Positions 24,646-48,703 of a stretch of DNA of 64,000 nucleotides are shown piece after piece (position 1 is the stretch's first letter; the number at the start of each line of letters is the position of its first letter). The stretch covers positions 3,224,001 through 3,288,000 of the forward strand of contig CM057141.1 in the NCBI GenBank assembly GCA_029964075.1. Direction: 5' to 3'. The translations under genes were made by a program, and so were the position numbers. The notes under the pieces are model-generated. The model did not search any database. It was given only the letters and a program-made list of their open reading frames with translations, and had not been told where the DNA came from. Source of the DNA: Patiria pectinifera (Eukaryota > Echinodermata > Asteroidea > Valvatida > Asterinidae).

Positions 24646-27600
24646 ATGGTAATCAAAGAGAAACCACTAGAACTAGAAGGGGACATCAGTATCGTTTCGT
24701 TTGACGATCCCAAGTGGGGACTCGAGCTAGAGAGCGTGGGACGAGCGAGAACCGCTGTCCGCATAGAGCAGGACGAGGACAATGGCTCAAGGGTTCCTGA
24801 ACAGCGCAGGAACCGCCCTTTCGGGTTCTGCTCGACGTGGACATCTACAGTATCAGACGCCGTTGGGATCACGGGAATTAAGTACATCGTCAGCAGCAAC
24901 TTCAATCTATTCCGAAGGTAAGTTAGGCAACCCTAATACCACCCATAAAATAGCGTAGTTTAATGTTAAGCTTGTGTACTTCTTACGTTGTCTTTCGGAA
25001 TCGTGTTCTTCTTGCTGTATATATTACCAATTGCATTTTTATTCACGTGAAGAAAAGAAGATGATGTTTATCATAGCAAACTTTTCATACGATGGAATGT
25101 GCGTCGGGTGAGATTCAATATTAGCTTTTGCCCTATGAGTATACAGTGTTTATACGTCGGTGAAAGGCAAAACCTAATATTAAATTTACAACACCCAGAC
25201 ACCCAGACATTCACCTTGTGAATAGTTTCATTGCGGTACCCGGGGCTACATAAGATTCTAACCAGCCATACCAGTTAGTGGTAAGACGTCTGCACTAAAA
25301 AGCAGGAGGTCGTGGGTTCGAGTCCCCGAGCCGAGTGTTTTTTCACACTTGGGTGCTGTTGTTAGATTCCGAAATACAGATATATTTTCCCTTACTTTTA
25401 TTGTTTTGAATGGGTCCAGCTTTTTTTTTATCGAGGTGTATTTAACTTTTTGCTTTGATTCATGACGTTTTAGTTTTTTTTAAAGGTAAGTCAAGTCTGA
25501 CACCCATTCGGGTGAAACTGACGCACGCGTAACGGTCGACTTCCGTAAAAATAGTGAAACATCGTAAAAGAGAGCTCCCCTCTCTACATGTACATTATAA
25601 GCTGGTTCCAATACCAAGTAGATTAGCATGACACATTACATAGCAAATTTACGTGATTAGCATAAATCAAATGGGTAACAAAACACATTGCATGGCATTT
25701 TGGCTGATGACCTGTTTCTGATGAGCAAATATATTCCATGCTTATAATTTTTGGAGTGTGCTTAACAGTTCTAGGAAATTCAATCCCCACTGTGCTAAGT
25801 GAGTATCGTTGCTTAACCAAATTAAGCCAATTGATATTACGAACCCACCTCCATGTCATATCTATCAGGCTTGTGTGGACCGTAGCGCTGCTCGGCGGGA
25901 TGTCTGCCGCATCTTACCAGATCATCAACCGAGCGGTGTTCTTCGCTGGTAACCCGAAGAGCGTGGACGTTGAGATCGAATACACGGAACCGATGACCTT
26001 TCCTGCCGTGACCGTCTGTAACACCAACCAGTTCAGGTAAAGTAAACCCTTCCCTCGTCTTTACACCAGCATTTTGTTCGTTTCCAATAATATCACCACT
26101 CAGGATCGAAAGAAGATTTTTTTCAGAGTTGTAACGAGGCACTGAATTCGTGTGACTTGAGTCGAGTCGAGTCATTTTATGGAAGTGACTCGAGTCGAGT
26201 CATTTGGTCAAGAAGGTCGATTTGAGTCTAGTGAGAGTGATGTGTGGTCGAGTTGAGTCGAGTCAAATTGAAGCTGGAGTCATAGAAATTGGAACACCAT
26301 CTAATAAATTACGGAATGCATGCAGGAAAAGGACACAAGGCACCAGTTTATTGTGAAGATCCAATGACTTAAAATATGCTGTATGATACCCAATAGACAG
26401 CTTCTGATGGACGTTTCTATCACAGCTCTACGTAGCAGGTAACAAGACGTGAAACTTCGGTCTTATCTCATGTTTGGCTTTGGGTCTGGAATAAGTTTTA
26501 ATCATAACGTCAAAACAAACTTGCAACATACGAAACTGTTTAGCTACATACAAATACATGTCTAAATGTGTTTTGAGAGCAGGACATAAATTTAGCCAGA
26601 ATTTCATTAACAATCACCCGAAGCTGATTATGAAACCAAGAATTGGAAAATAAAGTCTGGTTCCGGGATAATAGCTTGTGTGCTACATTATAAAACTGCG
26701 AGGTGGGAGTCCGTTATGGTGTATATTGTATGTACGCAATAAGCGGCCACAACTTGACGATATATCGCGAAACACGCGAACATAAGTATCTTTTGTACCG
26801 TACGGCACAGTTTTGGGACGGTTATTATTAGCCTTCGAGTGGAGTCGAGTCGAGTTTTCGAATGAAAGACTCGAGTCGAGGTATTTGCTGGCATTGACTC
26901 GAGTCGAGTCAGTTACCCGTTTGGACTGGAATCGAGTCAAGTCGCTAAAAATTGTGGCTCGAGTCGGACTCGAATCGAGTCGAGACACTTTGAGTCATGT
27001 ACAGCTCTGGAATTTCAACCTGTTGATTTGCTCAGTGGATATTTAACTCTTTAAAAAATCAGCTGGGAAAAACATGCACAACCTATACTATCACAAAACA
27101 CACTATTAGTCTATGACACTCCTTATTTCTAAAACCAGTCAATTGACTGATAGTTTGAAATCACCTACGTTTTATTTTCTTAAGATGGAATTTGCGTTGG
27201 AATGATGTAAATTTTTACCATTCGCCGACGTATAAACACTGTGTACTCTGTGTGTTCCCCCCACCCCGAGTGAAAGTGAGAAAAAAAAATCACTCAGTGG
27301 GACTCGAACCCAAATCATTCTGCTTTCTATGGCTGTCGTCTTACCACTCAATCAACGAGCTTATACAGGATTGGTTGGCTGGTTCGAATCTGATGTAGCA
27401 GCGGGTACCGCAATGAAGTTTTTTCATAAAATGGAATTCTTTCGATATACAGTATTTATGTCTGTGAAGAGCTGACCTTTCTATATGAAGCTATTTAATA
27501 ATAATATCGAACAGAGGAAAATAGTACGGGTTTTTTAAGCCCTTGGTAGAATTCCGGCTAAATAATGTCTTGCTCTCAAAACAAATTTAGATAAATTCTA

Positions 27601-30600
27601 TTTTTATTTTACGGGGTGTGTATAGTGCACTAGCATGACAATCCGAGTAAGCTTTTTAATAATAATTTTGAACAAAGAAAAATAATCCCATGAAAAAAAT
27701 CTATTGATTCCTGTGTGTAGTTGGGATCAGGCGTTCGCTCGTGCCCCCCGTATAAACATTTTACGTAAGTTGTGACCTGCAAGTCATCACGGCCACGACC
27801 CTGCAAGGTTTGAAACGGCCGTTAAGACTGAGTCATCAGTCTTTTATTCCAACTCATAAGTACTTTTTTTCGTTGAAAAACGTAATAATGTGGGCAAAAT
27901 CTGTAAGACTTATCTGTTTTATTAATTTTCAATTCTCGTCACTTGCTCAGGTTCAGTTTCGAATTCACGATCGGTCAAATTGCATATTATGCGACGCTCA
28001 GAACTTTTCCACATGGTCCGCAGTGAAAATGAAATCACATCCGGTATGGAATGTGTGCATTTCTATGAGAACGTTTTCGGATAGTTGTGCACATTGGCTA
28101 ACAGCGGTCTTAAACAGCTGCAGCAAGACGTTTCTATGCATAGGTCATGATAAGCTACCCAGAGAATGCCATCACCACTTCCTTCACAAGATTCTGTGAA
28201 GCTCATGAGCCCGTCCCAGCGCCTGTCTGCATGGCGGGGGTACGAGCGAAGAGCAGGCGTCGCCCGCACGCCCCCAGGGCGCCCTCAAGAAGGTTAAAGT
28301 ACTCCCGTCCGAAGAGACCGTGACTTGTCCAAGCGAAATGCATAAACCATTACATTTACATCTACATCTCGATTATCTTGCAAAATGGTTGATCCGCATC
28401 TCACTAGAGCTGGATGGTGTGTCGCGGTGCCAGAAAATCTAAGTTTGGTAATCCACGTGAAGAATGCGGTCAGCAATGGTATTAAATGCATGAAGTACAA
28501 GTGTCTCTAATTAGGTATTTCTGTTTCTCACTGGCTGATATTGATTCTCTTAGGAACCAACTTGGTGCTCTAAAACAACATCCATTCGGTCAATTTTTGT
28601 CTGCCTACTACTACGGCGAGAACTTGACCGATTTCATACCGACACTGGGAGGTGCCAACACTACGGCCTTGTATTACGACTTCGCTCATCCGATGGACTC
28701 ATCCGGAATGTTCTCAGAGTAAGTGCATCATTAAAGATGTTGTGGAATGCATATTTTTATTGAAGAGTAGACTCATATATATCATAATGACAAACTCCCA
28801 TTCTTTTGTAATGTGCGTTTATATGTTTATAAAACCGAAATTCATCGAGTAATTTGTTGGTCGGCGAGCGCATAATTGAAATCAACAGTCGCCGGGTTCT
28901 TCGTAAAATCAGAAAAATCGTGACGTAATTAACAGGACTCGTTTATACTACGCTGCATCGGGAGTCCTGTTTATTACGTCACGATTTACTATGTTTTGTT
29001 TGCTGCCCCCAACGACGACTTTTACACAAATTGCACGTTCGGGTCGAAAAAGGACCTGAAAAACAGCTCTCAAAAGTACCTTTTGTATTCATTTCAAGAC
29101 AGACACAATAGTTGTTTTTATTTCATCACACCTTAGGCTACACATACCCGAAAAATGACGGAAATGCTTCGAGCATTCTACAACCTCTTTAATTTTGTTT
29201 ACATCAATAACAAGTTTTCTGTCGCTTTGAAGGCCGCTGAATCTTTTGAGGCAGAACGAATTCACTGGGCTTTACGATGCACCGCACGTACAGGCCTGAC
29301 TCAAGTAAAGGGCCCATTTTAATACATGTATAATGTTTTAATACAACCTTGAAGATGCACGTTTGTGTCCCTTTTAACATTAATTTTAAGTTTCAGTTTG
29401 GAAAAGTGTGATGTCATTTTAGGCATGCAGACACCTCAGTGTTAAAGCTCTAAAGGTTGCCAGAATTGTGGACTATAGTTGGAAAAAAAAGTTAATTCTT
29501 CGCCTCCTGGAACGGAAATTATTCTTACCATTGCACTCATAGCCATTCAATGTTTTTTTTTAAATAAACATTCGATATGAAACTCAGAAAAGGCCTTTTT
29601 TCCGGGTAACTGCGATTTTCGTGTTGTTGTATCGTACCGTACAGATCGTCTTTTGGTGGAGCACATTTAACTCCTGCCGATTTTACGAGCGTTCTGACAA
29701 AACATGGCGTTTGCTACACCTTCAATGGTGGGCTCAATGGTCAAGAATTGAGGCAACAAAAGTTTGCAGGTAAATACGTCTCTATATCTAAAGCGGTCTT
29801 CCAACTCTTACGCGAGAAACCATGTTCACCGTCAGTATTTAAAAATTACCATTGTAAAACACCTAAAGGCTGATTCGATCGACTACAAACAGTCAAACCT
29901 GCAATCAGCAGACAAGAGCTGGGGTCGGCCGGGTGAAGTTTGACTAGAAACTAGAATGTGTTCGAAATAGTTTAAGGTATTGCTGTCCATTCAAGTCAAA
30001 ACCGATGGTGGAGAATTAATATCATAGTTTACTAATGTTGCTTCTCACTTTCCACTAGGTGGTCAACACGGATTTGTGTTAGTGCTTAACATCGAGCAAT
30101 ATAACTACTACTTCTCCAAAGATTCATTGGGGGCCGGAATCTATGTGGCTGTGCATGACCAGGATGAGGTGCCAGATATTGACTCAATGGGCGTGGGCGT
30201 CCCAGCAGGCGCATTTGGCAGAATCAGTGTTCGGAAGAAAACGGTAGGCTGTGTTCTGTGTGCGTTTGCCTAGTCATTAGATAAAACAGCTTCTCGTCAG
30301 AAGACTAACCTAAAAAAACAAAACAAAACAAAAAAACACAAAAAAAAACACAAAAAAAAAAACAAAAAAAAAAACAAAAAAAAAACGGACGTGTACATCC
30401 CCTCAATGCAATTAATAATAATAGTGGATATTTATAAAGCGCACGTATCCACCAGGACTGGTGCTCAAGGCGCTACATCATTATTACCCCTGCTCACTGG
30501 GCACATGAAACATTCCAAATACCATCTCAGCTCCCTGGGGAGTATACAGCTCGATGCAGCCTGTTAGGCGCAAGGAAGCTAATTCAATCACAATAACCAT

Positions 30601-43400: not shown

Positions 43401-46400
43401 TAGCTGTAACACTGAGGTCTCTGCCTGCACATTATGAAAAATGAAAATTGCAAATTAAATGAGACACAAAGGTGCATGTTCAAGGTTGCATTAAACAATA
43501 ATACACGGGCCCATTAATAGAGTTGGGCCTGTACATGCGGTGCATCATTGGGAGAGTTGACTTTAAGAGTATTAACCCAAGATAGCTCAGTGAATTCGTT
43601 TTGCCTTAGACGATTCAGCGTCCTGCAAAACAGAAAAATAACTTGTTACCGATGAAAAACAAAAGTGACGATGTACTCACAAACTGAGCATTCCGGTAAA
43701 CTCCATCGGGTGAGCGAAGTCGTAATACAAGGCGGTAGTGTTGGCACCTCGCAGTGTCGGTATGAAAGAGGTCAAGTTCTCGCCGTAGTAGTAGGCAGAC
43801 AAAAATTGACCGAATGGATGTTGTTGTAGTAAGTTACCAGGCAGTTTGTTCCTGGAAGAATCCAGATCAGCCAGTGAGAAACAGATATTCCTTACCAGAG
43901 GCGGCGGAACGCTTTTCAAACTGAGGGGTAACACCAAAAAGGGGCACTTATCCAGAAAAAGGGGCACCTTCCGCCGGTGTGTAGGGAGAGCCCTACTGCC
44001 TCCGCAATGGCGGATCCAGAAAAGTGGGTTCACAAATTCACGGCGTGGGGTTCGGGGCCCGCTTAAGCACCCCCCATGGATTTTAGATGCTCTGTGGTGC
44101 GACTGAGACAAATTTTGGCCACTTTAAACCAATTTTGGTGTCAAGATGGTGGTGGACGTAGTGGCTGCCTTTTTTGTCACGTCACTAAAAATAAAAACAA
44201 TTTGGGTTCGTGATTTTTTTCTTTGCGGGCATGGCCCCTTGCTCCCCCCGGATCCGCCCTTCGGCCTTCGGCACAACCTATCTGTAACCTATCAGTAACC
44301 TATGTGGGTCTGCCCATGAATTTGACTAGTTATGTAGAAAGACCCATTTTTTTTATCGCGAGAGGGACACTGTTGCTTTTGATGGCCAGCTCAGTGACCA
44401 TTTTATTCGCGTGAGGAGGAGCACTATTATTTTTAAATGCCAGTTTTTCATGAGAGGGGCACACATTTAATGTTGCGAGCGGGGCACTAATCAAATGGTG
44501 CTTTCGATGGGCGGTTTTCGATCTCGATAAGGTTCACAATCTGGTTAATGCTAGAGGGGCACTTGTGTTTTTGAGGGGCAATTTTCCATTACAAGAGAGC
44601 AGACAATTTTATTCGTAACGCGATCATAATGATGCTTTCACTGTGTGCGTTTGAGGGACACTTTTGTTTTCATCTCGAGGAGACACATTTATAACTGCGG
44701 GAGGGGGGGGGGACACTTTTGTTGGCCTGGGAAAATCTGGGGGCAAGTGCCCCCGTCACCCAACCCCGGTTCCGCCACCCCTGTTCCTAGCTTTAACTGA
44801 AGGAAGATACTTGGTATTCACACATCAACGTGTACACACAGTCGTGTTTTACTATACGCCTGAGGACAACCTGTTGTGTTTCCCTTTGTCCCTCTAATAT
44901 AACACTTTCCCATAGACTAAGCACATAACCGTACGATTGAGGACCGGTTTTAACAATAGGCACCGTCGTCCGAGGATCAAAGGCCCCTTTGTGCTCCTTT
45001 TGTTGTCTGTCCTCGAGCGTAATACAATACAAGAGCACTGTCTTGTACTACAATGCACAACGCGTGAATCCCAACTATACTTTTCCTTCGATCTCAGCTC
45101 TTGGACTGGAACTTGCGTCGGACCAGGAAAACAAATTATTATTTTTTTTTTTTTAGGAAGCCTTGTCCCTGGCTAGGAAAAGATGCCAATCTCAAACACA
45201 GGATCGTGGTACATGTTTATTTGTGTTATTGATTGAGCACGCATTACTTCATTGTTCATTGTTATTGACATTTTGAGAATTTAAGAGTTTGTGTGCTATT
45301 AAGAAACAGGATGCCTCAATTTTTGGAGGATTTAAAAGAAAACAAAAGTTGTCTTGCGTGTGTTTGCATGACTGTGTGATGCGTTATAGGGTCATTTGCA
45401 TTTATCCCACAATTAACTTAACGACTCCGGATGATCAAAAGATTACGGGGATAAAGAGCGTACTGGTGCTGAAACTGTTCCGTTTTGGCTTCCTCTTATT
45501 TGAGAAGAAATCATGAAATGTTGGCGATTTCCAACGATCAGGCAATTGACTGGTTTGTTTGGAAAGAGCGCTATGGAAGAAATCGTGCTTTGTGATCAAA
45601 CGCGGGTATATTTTGAGTATGTGTTTTTTTTTATTTTACTGATTTCTCGATAAGCGTCATATCCAATGCGCTAAAACTCCATCAGGTTAGTTTCAAACAC
45701 CCTTCTTTGGATTATAAGTGTTGTTGATATTTAAACCTATATAACGAAATGCCTGAAATGTATCCTAAAGAAAAAAACAATTTGCGGGCAACACCATGTG
45801 GAAAGAAATCTTTTCTTGGAAGAAGTGTGGTTCTGAAAAGAACCCGTTGGATTGAGTGTGTAGAACTCGGCGTTTCGGACAGTGTGCTCTGTCCGTAGTC
45901 AGGAGAACCACGCTTCTTCCAAGAGCAGATATCTTTCCACATGCACACACGCACATGGGCGTCGCCAGAATTTTTTCTAGAGCGGGGCAAAAAAATGTTT
46001 GGCCAAAAAATGCTTGTATTTCTCAACACATTCTCGATTTATCAGTTTTAGAGGGGGCAGGGACATTTTGCCCCCCCCCCAACTCATTAAATTTACACCA
46101 CTTTGTCTTCGCGCCTCTTTTTCTTTTTTTTTTCTTTTCTTTTTTTCCTTCTTTTTAAAATTTTTTTGGGGTTTTTTTCCGGGGGGGGGGGGGGGGCAAG
46201 TGCCCCCCTTGCCCCCCCCCCTCGCGACGCCCATGCACACGCAGTTGTTTTATCTCATCCGCCATGCAAAGCTTCAAGTCATATATACAAGCCATATATA
46301 TACACATTATTATCCTGTATGCCTTTAATGACGTTGAAAAGTTGAAGGGGGTTTCTTTTACCTGAACTGGTTGGTGTTGCAGACGGTCACGGCAGGAAAG

Positions 46401-48703
46401 GTCATCGGTTCCGTGTATTCGATCTCAACGTCCACGCTCTTCGGGTTACCAGCGAAGAACACCGCTCGGTTGATGATCTGGTAAGATGCGGCAGACATCC
46501 CGCCGAGCAGCGCTACGGTCCACACAAGCCTGGTAGATATGACATGGAGTGTCAATTGGCTTAACCCTAAAAGGGCTGGGCGGGAGGGGGGATCCGCCCC
46601 CATAAGATCTAAGCCATCAAGCGTCGAAAAATTATGAAACTCAGTACATGCATAGAGAAACTTATCATGAACATACCCAAGAAATTTCATGACTATAGAT
46701 TAAAGGGTTTTGGAATTATGGCTAATTAATCATTCATATGCACGAATGGCAATTCTGCTCTGTGTACACTACGTATTATGTGGAAATCCAGTTTTCACGG
46801 CGCGTAGCGCCGAAAAAAAATTCGCTGCGCGGTAACCCGTGGTCCGATTTTTACGCTTTTGGTATCAAATGATGCGCAAGGCACGAGGCTAAAATGTCAT
46901 AGCAGCTCGAAATGCGAAAAAAAATCTAGGCTATCGCGGAAAAAGTCGAGGGGGCGGATTCCGCCCCCGGCTCCTTAGGGTTAACCAAAAATAGCCTGAT
47001 ATGACATGGAGGTGGTTCCGTATAAATAGAAATTCGCCAAGCAATGATAGTCCCTTAGTATAATCGGACTTGGATTCATGGAAACTGTAACATCTGCAAA
47101 CAAGTCCAATTTTAAGCATGGAGACATGTTTGTTTATGCAGCAGAATCAGGTCACCAGTCAAAACGTCATGCAACGTGCACTGCTGGTGACTGGTAAGCA
47201 TCTGATATATGCTAAGCACGTACATTTGCTAACTACTACTTTATGCTTATTGGCCGCATGAAATAGGCCCCGTGTTACAATGCAGATGCATCGGATGAAG
47301 TGGTGTTTTTACGCTTTTGCTTTTTTTAAGTGACCATTGCGGTGCGTCAGTTCCAACCGAATGATGCTCGGACTTAACTAACCTTTAAAGACCATTCATA
47401 GAAAACCATGAATCAGACAGAAACATTAATGTACTACAATTGATAAGTTTGATTTGATTTAAAATTAAAAAAAAATTACAGTAGAAAATCTGTATTTTGG
47501 GAAACTAAACGCTCTATGCACTCAAAACGCACATTGAGCTACCTGCTAAGCGCCTCAATTGCTGTTAACACATCATAATATGGATCGCAATGTTTTGTTG
47601 CAATTCCGTAAGAAAGGCCTAAGACCTTAAGCCGTATAGAAATAAAAACGTTTTAAGGCTTTCGTACGATCAAACATGATTCCCGAAGTCAGTTGAAACA
47701 GATTGCCAAGCACGCCAAACTCTGTAGGGTCTACAATGGTTTCAGTTTTCTAAGATACTATACTTACAAAAAATAAAAGGTTTACTTCGGCTTCGTAATG
47801 ACTGGCTTTTAACCGTGTCCAATGGCAGATTATGACAGACGATCTCGAACGGGCCACTGGGTATGTTCTTTTATTTTCCTTGTATTTTTTTTCTATTATT
47901 TTAATTGAAAGCTGACTTGCGATTTTCAGTTATTTTTTTTGACCCTAGGACCATGTGGCCAATTTACTGGACAGCCTCCGTAAATAGGCCACACTTGGAT
48001 CATGTACTCAAACATGTAGAACTTTGTCAAATTTGTATTTTCACATTTAGGCTTTATTTGTAGTTTATTTACGCTCTACAAGCATACTCACCCTCTTTAT
48101 AGCGATAGAAAATTTATCCCACTTTTTCAGACATCTACTTTTTGTGTATTTTCTATCGCTATAAAGAGGGTGAGTATGCTTGTAAAGCGTAAATAAACTA
48201 CAAAAAGCCTAAATGTGAAAATACAAATTTGACAAAGTTCTGCATATTTGGGTACATGGTCCGAGTGTGGCCTTTATTTACGGAGGAAGTCCAGTAAATT
48301 GGCCACATTTATGGGGCTACTTTGACCCATCCACAAAAAAATGTGAAAAAAATCGTATTGTTTTAACATTGACTATTCTGCCCCTAAACAAATTAATGTG
48401 TAAATGGAGTGTTAAATCATAGTTTAGCCAAGCATACCTCCGGAATAAGCTAAAATTGCTGCTGACGATAAACTTGATTCCTGTGATCCCAACGGCGTCC
48501 GATACTGTAGATGTCCACGTCGAGCAGAACCCGAAAGGGCGGTTCCTGCGCTGCTCGGGAACCCTTGAGCCATTGTCCTCGTCCTGCTCTATGCGGACAG
48601 CGGTTCTCGCTCGTCTCACGCTCTCTCGCTCAAGCCCCCACTTGGGATCGTCAAACGAAACGATACTGATGTCCCCTTCTATGGGTTTCACTTTAATCAC
48701 CAT
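37404..48703 (-). CDS. DEG/ENaC family sodium channel subunit B, 10 exons, inverted paralogue of A
   Basis: Exons on the minus strand: 48703-48438, 46529-46362, 43890-43681, 42579-42452, 42131-41947, 40947-40812, 40715-40653, 39534-39372, 38007-37916 and 37513-37404. The total is 506 aa. Every exon has the same phase and nearly the same length as in channel A; small in-frame indels occur in exons 1, 3, 4, 8 and 10. It keeps TM1, FPAVTVCN, the cysteine framework, the GGS belt and the short tail, and also has TG for the usual HG. Exons 1, 2 and 10 are very close to A; exons 3-9 (extracellular) differ much more, as expected if ligand or partner choice has diverged. Its introns hold several later insertions, including one next to exon 3 that may disturb splicing. 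No frame break is visible. Confidence 0.92.
37545..37830. repeat. Dispersed repeat D, copy 2 (channel B intron 9)
   Basis: It matches copy 1 (36110-36370) over GGCCTTCAAAAGGAC through GACGACGATTCTTGAAATC. It extends to GGGGTTTGGGTTCCGC, the same end as the palindromic copy at 59957-60626. Confidence 0.65.
38356..39263. mobile_element. hAT-like element with GAGTC-repeat ends, copy in channel B intron 8
   Basis: This is the inverted relative of 26124-27009. Degenerate GACTC pentamers pack both ends (38385-38430 and 39125-39235), and GGAGGTGG occurs directly at 38348-38355 and 39264-39271. The exact 8-bp duplication supports the hAT superfamily. The ends are CGCAGAGTTGATATG and (inverted) CAGGGTTGTAACC. 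No transposase frame. Confidence 0.65.
39588..39880. repeat. Dispersed repeat F, copy 2 (channel B intron 7)
   Basis: It is the same family as 34062-34330 and in the same orientation, although genes A and B are inverted relative to each other. The repeats therefore inserted independently of the gene duplication. Its right end is a tight hairpin, CTCCCTGTGGGATACCACG/CGTGATATCCCACAGGGAG, at 39838-39876. Confidence 0.65.
42712..42812 (-). repeat. tRNA-like sequence in channel B intron 3
   Basis: The minus strand reads TGTAGCTCATTTGGTAGGC (A box/D arm) then GTGGGTTCGAATCCCCG (B box/T arm) at tRNA-like spacing. Acceptor-stem pairing is poor. Probably a SINE head or tRNA pseudogene. Confidence 0.5.
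43896..44783. mobile_element. hAT-like non-autonomous element abutting channel B exon 3
   Basis: Ends CAGAGGCGGCGGAAC and (inverted) CAGGGGTGGCGGAAC enclose 888 bp of GGGGCACTT-rich non-coding DNA. Flanks TTCCTTAC (43888-43895) and TTCCTAGC (44784-44791) match at 6 of 8 positions, which fits an aged 8-bp duplication. The inner flank contains the AG acceptor and first bases of exon 3 of channel B. A second MITE is nested inside (44005-44262). Confidence 0.7.
44005..44262. mobile_element. hAT-type MITE with GGCGGATCCAG ends, copy 1 (nested)
   Basis: Ends CAATGGCGGATCCAG and (inverted) GAAGGGCGGATCCGG. The inner word TAGATGCTCTGTGGTGCGA is shared with the copy at 57238-57466. Flanks TGCCTCCG and GGCCTTCG match at 6 of 8. 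It sits inside the larger hAT-like element. Confidence 0.7.
45794..45942. mobile_element. Short palindromic MITE, ends ATGTGGAAAGA
   Basis: ACCATGTGGAAAGAAATCTT on the left is answered by GATATCTTTCCACATG on the right, with inner arms TTCTTGGAAGAAG/CTTCTTCCAAGAG and GGTTCT/AGAACC, and GGACAGTG/CTCTGTCC at the centre. The ends resemble the palindromic element at 57927-58278 (ACACCATGTGG). Confidence 0.6.
45954..46235. mobile_element. hAT-type MITE with exact 8-bp target duplication CACACGCA
   Basis: Ends CATGGGCGTCGC and GCGACGCCCATG, flanked by CACACGCA at 45946-45953 and 46236-46243. The inside contains long G and C runs and a TTTTC-rich tract. It lies in channel B intron 2. Confidence 0.8.
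46565..46980. mobile_element. piggyBac-type MITE, TTAA target, channel B intron 1
   Basis: Flanked by TTAA (46561-46564, 46981-46984). Ends CCCTAAAAGGGCTGGGCGGG and (inverted) CCCTAAGGAGCCGGGGGCGG. The next inner words GGATCCGCCCCC and GGCGGATTCCGCCCCC are palindromic too. The homologous spot in channel A intron 1 (near 25822-25825) is an uninterrupted TTAA followed by GCCAATTGA, so the empty site is visible. Confidence 0.85.
47953..48306. mobile_element. Foldback element in channel B intron 1
   Basis: Nearly perfect inverted arms of about 160 bp run from TGTGGCCAATTTACTGGAC to GTCCAGTAAATTGGCCACA, with CTCACCCTCTTTATAGCGAT and its complement close to the centre (about 48125). Channel A intron 1 lacks it. 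Confidence 0.75.

Follow-up and report, generated by a model that had tools for sequence, protein, structure and literature searches.

The window, a stretch of 64,000 nucleotides (C13:3224001-3288000) in a genome of 613.5 Mb and 1,020 contigs, has an animal-like gene content and carries on its minus strand a gene for a sodium channel of the DEG/ENaC kind, here called B. Six exons assembled for it, when joined, score 162.4 bits against the Pfam ASC profile (profile positions 23-336 of 455), and it is by this match that B resembles the DEG/ENaC (ASC) channel genes, for which the genome holds at least 107 ASC matches (93 of 191 candidates scored). A paralogue, A, lies in inverted orientation on the plus strand, and the gene models of both A and B were assembled with six exons each. 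The exon of B that encodes the first transmembrane segment (TM1; 46362-46529, minus strand) ends with ...CNTNQF, two bases of an R codon and the donor CAG/GTAAAAG (a slash marks the splice junction). It is followed, across the intron that is the subject of this analysis, by an exon of 171 nt (43681-43851, minus strand), which was exon 3 in a preliminary description of the locus and is counted as exon 2 in the A/B identities below. The corresponding exons of A lie at 25869-26036 (TM1) and 28554-28718 (165 nt) on the plus strand, the latter with the acceptor CTCTTAG/GAAC and no transposon upstream of it.

The peptide of the B exon matches three places in the genome, namely B itself, A (window 28519-28716, 80% identity) and, weakly, C13:3294375-3294590 (E 2.45). 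Since a TM1 exon lies about 1.4 kb upstream of this third place and a further exon downstream, and since the three exons reach 52.9 bits against ASC when joined, we take it as part of a third DEG/ENaC paralogue, C (L033, C13:3292795-3303410), which stands in tandem just past the end of the window. Between A and B, the TM1 exons (25869-26036, plus strand, and 46362-46529, minus strand) differ at one of 168 bases, while elsewhere the two genes are less alike (exons 2-6 81-92% identical, intron 3 79%), a pattern suggestive of recent local gene conversion in this inverted pair of paralogues.

A hAT-like element in the intron of channel B

The intron of B contains an 888-bp element at 43896-44783, whose longest stop-free stretch is 76 codons. 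The preliminary description had proposed a hAT-like insertion of exactly this extent, and its proposal is borne out by inverted terminal arms of 15 nt and by family copies with the same ends. The arms, CAGAGGCGGCGGAAC on the side of the exon (43896-43910, plus strand) and GTTCCGCCACCCCTG at the far end (44769-44783, plus strand), are 87% complementary and have 858 nt between them. The element is bordered by the 8-bp flanks TTCCTTAC (43888-43895; GTAAGGAA on the minus strand) and TTCCTAGC (44784-44791; GCTAGGAA on the minus strand), which agree at six of eight positions. A match of this level at the same spacing occurs in 406 of 63,096 position pairs of the window (0.6%), and taken alone the flanks of this copy are moderate evidence for a target duplication.

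The other members of the family lend more weight. A search of the genome with the element gave at least 61 matches (40 of 2,486 candidates scored), the longer copies being 72-80% identical, and a search with its first 105 bases gave at least 40, of which the 39 others are 82-92% identical (40 of 609 candidates scored). The terminal pattern, from which the window copy departs at one base, occurs exactly at 131 places in the genome, compared with none for the reversed control. We examined 32 family loci for their ends, including the window copy, and found both terminal repeats in 7 of the 31 others; in strict register, the flanks of two of these seven agree at 8/8, those of two at 7/8 and those of three at 3-4/8. 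For the loci L005, L007 and L017 the flank scores refer to a listing in which the pair of ends whose flanks disagree least comes first, L007 and L017 each having a single end pair that is seen on both strands.

Because family copies with the same ends match in their flanks at 7/8 or 8/8, we regard the ends of the element as settled; judged from these comparisons, both the ends and the 8-bp target duplication appear sound, and the duplication that had been proposed at this insertion is thus probable. It could be argued that the reading as a hAT copy with these ends is mistaken and that the flanks agree by chance, given that they match at only 6/8, a level which 0.6% of position pairs attain, and that three of the seven two-ended relatives are unmatched in strict register. 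This explanation seems to us extremely improbable in view of the four relatives that share these ends and whose flanks agree at 7/8 or 8/8, and of the 131 exact occurrences of the terminal pattern against none for its reversal.

The hAT elements are defined by short CA...TG terminal inverted repeats and by 8-bp target duplications. The element in B has such repeats, in the form of its 15-nt arms with related arms in the family copies, and a duplication of this length (6/8 in the window copy, up to 8/8 in relatives), and it also resembles the non-autonomous members of the superfamily in having no coding capacity and many diverged copies. The fit with the superfamily is judged from ends, duplication and copies; the genome does contain at least 94 matches to the hAT dimerisation domain (PF05699; 150 of 182 candidates scored), which are not tied to the terminal repeats of this family. 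We take the window copy to be an old one.

Two further repeats were observed here. Within the element, a second inverted pair at 44006-44017 and 44250-44261 (AATGGCGGATCC / GGATCCGCCCTT) may mark a nested element. Just beyond it, in the same intron, lies a repeat some 205 bp long (44834-45038), dispersed over at least 39 other places at 90-97% identity (40 of 1,595 candidates scored), frequently with CACACA-rich borders.

When the flanks of B are joined, they align to A across the border of the element. The outer 50 bp alone align to A at chance level, with a score that 315 of 2,996 window segments attain. The homology of the two introns rests on another block, B 45596-45505 with A 27090-27181 (72% identity, E 9e-10). 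A search of the genome with the inner flank for a second allele lacking the element matched B and A only; with the outer flank, the matches listed besides the window itself all fell within positions 36-264 of the query, which are the dispersed repeat (40 of 1,595 candidates scored).

Two in-frame AGs before the exon

According to the preliminary description, the insertion had struck the acceptor of the exon itself, and the target duplication seemed to have copied this acceptor to both sides of the element. The readings on which it relied, CTAG/GAA in the outer flank and GTAAG/GAA in the inner flank of the minus strand, are present in the sequence. B has, however, two AGs in the same frame, 39 nt apart: GTAAG/GAAT, which would make 43890 the first exon base, and CTTCCAG/GAAC, with its AG at 43852-43853 (minus strand) and the first exon base at 43851. 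It is the second that the paralogues have in common, their aligned acceptors being CTCTTAG/GAAC in A and CCCCCCAG/AAAC in C. The AG favoured by this comparison thus lies 39 nt downstream of the insertion and outside the duplication, and neither the exact coincidence of insertion and acceptor nor the copying of a working acceptor finds support.

Several features of the paralogues point in the same direction. With the downstream acceptor, the exons would begin with RNKLPGNLLQQHPF (B), RNQLGALKQHPF (A) and RNLAVYSNVTYHPF (C), all of which start with R-N, and the number of residues from R-N to the common HPF is equal in B and C and lower by two in A. The acceptor tracts of A and B differ by three changes (CTT versus TCC), each from pyrimidine to pyrimidine. 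In C the next AG upstream is 52 nt off and out of frame. The single-exon paralogues were also compared for the spacing after CN.N, a region too variable to decide between the two acceptors.

We read the 39 nt (43852-43890, minus strand) as the final stretch of the intron, in which CTCAC and CTGAT are candidate branch sites, with their A at 43875 (-24) and 43867 (-16), respectively. Both motifs occur at the same distances in A, and C has CTGAT at -19. The AG-free stretch before the downstream acceptor measures 39 nt in A, 39 nt in B and 52 nt in C, with CTGAT inside it, and the base at -3 is C in B, T in A and C in C. The inner border site has an AG-free stretch of 21 nt, in which no A lies as far as 15 nt from the junction, and its base at -3 is A; the AG-free stretch of the outer site measures 4 nt. 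AG exclusion zones and branch points are reportedly known from published work. Such rules are not absolute, however, since an AG very near the branch point can be skipped. For comparison, 11 further acceptors in the three genes were assigned by eye, with alignment and frame as the guide: 10 have C or T at -3, and 10 obey both rules, that of the base at -3 and that of the distant A. The pyrimidine content from -17 to -5 is similar at both sites (9 of 13 at the border, 8 of 13 downstream).

The likely acceptor of exon 4 of B (42131, minus strand) reads CCAAAAG/GTGC compared with CCACTAG/GTGG in A. It breaks both rules, as the inner border site does: the base at -3 is an A, which is unusual, and its AG-free stretch has no A as far as 15 nt from the junction, which weakens the case that these signals make against the border.

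From these comparisons we consider it likely that a non-autonomous hAT-like element entered the intron of B between the TM1 exon and the next one, making an 8-bp target duplication 39 nt before the acceptor of that exon. Because the candidate branch sites and the acceptor lie intact downstream of the element, splicing would probably join the TM1 donor (46361) to 43851 and take out the element along with the other intron sequence, and the AG copies at its borders would probably be duplicated intron sequence that is not used. The element, its flanks, the two in-frame AGs and the homology to A and C are seen in the sequence, while the choice of the AG and the undisturbed splicing are what we infer.

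Use of the outer AG would break the frame, as had been stated: 896 nt would then precede the inner site (remainder 2), shifting the frame, and a stop follows after 10 residues. As for the inner AG, if the exon started at 43890, the insertion would have hit the acceptor and its target duplication would have left one AG at either border, with the polypyrimidine tract of the inner site now supplied by the element; indeed CCGCCGCCTCTG is the end of the element, as the preliminary description had it, although GTAAG/GAA as the acceptor of the exon is not confirmed. An AG stands in both flanks, and in A as well as in B the 39 nt keep the frame and contain no stop. Moreover, A has an AG at the border (TTAG/GTAT) without any element, which makes an ancestral border acceptor conceivable; this AG fits either reading, as an ancestral acceptor or as a chance AG. 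We nonetheless find a border start of the exon quite unlikely, since the AG-free stretch of the inner site lacks a candidate branch adenosine and its base at -3 is A, C has no in-frame site there within 52 nt, and the aligned acceptors of the three genes coincide 39 nt downstream in B.

It might also be that both acceptors (43890 and 43851) are used, yielding a shorter protein and one with 13 more residues just outside TM1, the end of the transposon forming part of the weaker site. The length of 39 nt is divisible by 3, the stretch contains no stop in either A or B, and gene B may make use of weak acceptors that have A at -3, as at exon 4. Against this stand the weakness of the border site (no candidate branch adenosine, A at -3) and the small gain that the insert brings in the family profile beyond shuffled residues, and we hold such dual use to be very unlikely.

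Divergence and profile scores across the 39 nt

Other comparisons were neutral or leaned the other way. A and B are identical at 32 of the 39 positions, which Fisher's test distinguishes neither from exon 2 (150/163; P 0.07) nor from pooled exons 2-6 (574/672; P 0.49) nor from intron 3 (223/282; P 0.83), and the argument that the 39 nt diverge like an intron and unlike an exon was accordingly dropped. Four codons of the 39 nt are changed between A and B, all of them altering the residue; this is no test, because the changes in exon 2 are also mostly residue-changing (10 versus 4 silent). Within the 39 nt, TCTGTTTC is common to A, B and C, which counts on the side of the border acceptor.

The longer protein, with the 13 residues, scores slightly higher against Pfam ASC than the shorter one (165.4 versus 162.4 in B, 174.6 versus 168.2 in A), which speaks for the border acceptor. 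With inserts of shuffled residues, however, B reaches 162.3-166.8, so that the real score ranks second of seven; a translation of the C intron gives 162.2 and a neutral linker 162.9 (8 of 9 constructs scanned). The real insert of A lies above all six shuffles (172.0-173.9; all 6 scanned). Most of the gain thus comes from length, and the test is neutral to slightly against the downstream acceptor. We set the ASC score aside as a judge between the acceptors, as shuffled inserts account for most of the gain.

Comparison with introners

Introners are described (PMC9860276) as transposons that create introns and recruit their splice sites from the target duplication. The locus in B is alike in that a transposon copy lies beside an exon with an AG in its target duplication, and unlike in that the element created no intron and that the likeliest acceptor lies outside the duplication. 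That no intron was created follows from A and C, where the element is absent and an intron nevertheless occupies this place. The duplication does hold an AG in both copies, but the comparison of paralogues favours the AG 39 nt downstream. The element is hence most likely an ordinary non-autonomous hAT insertion in a pre-existing intron of B.

Read in this manner, it is one more old intronic transposon copy, some tens of bases away from an exon, and the insertion was probably tolerated because both the branch site and the acceptor stand beyond it. It also cautions that an AG at the border of a transposon should not be called a splice site until paralogues have been compared. That B uses the border acceptor part of the time, with a duplicated AG, a polypyrimidine tract given by the transposon, 13 additional residues outside TM1 and an in-frame rivalry with the old acceptor, strikes us as unlikely; if the border site did serve, B would offer a clean example of a splice acceptor copied by target duplication.

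As a minor observation on the same border, the minus strand reads CTG/GTAAGG where the element meets its inner flank (43896-43907 with 43888-43895), which is near the splice donor consensus.
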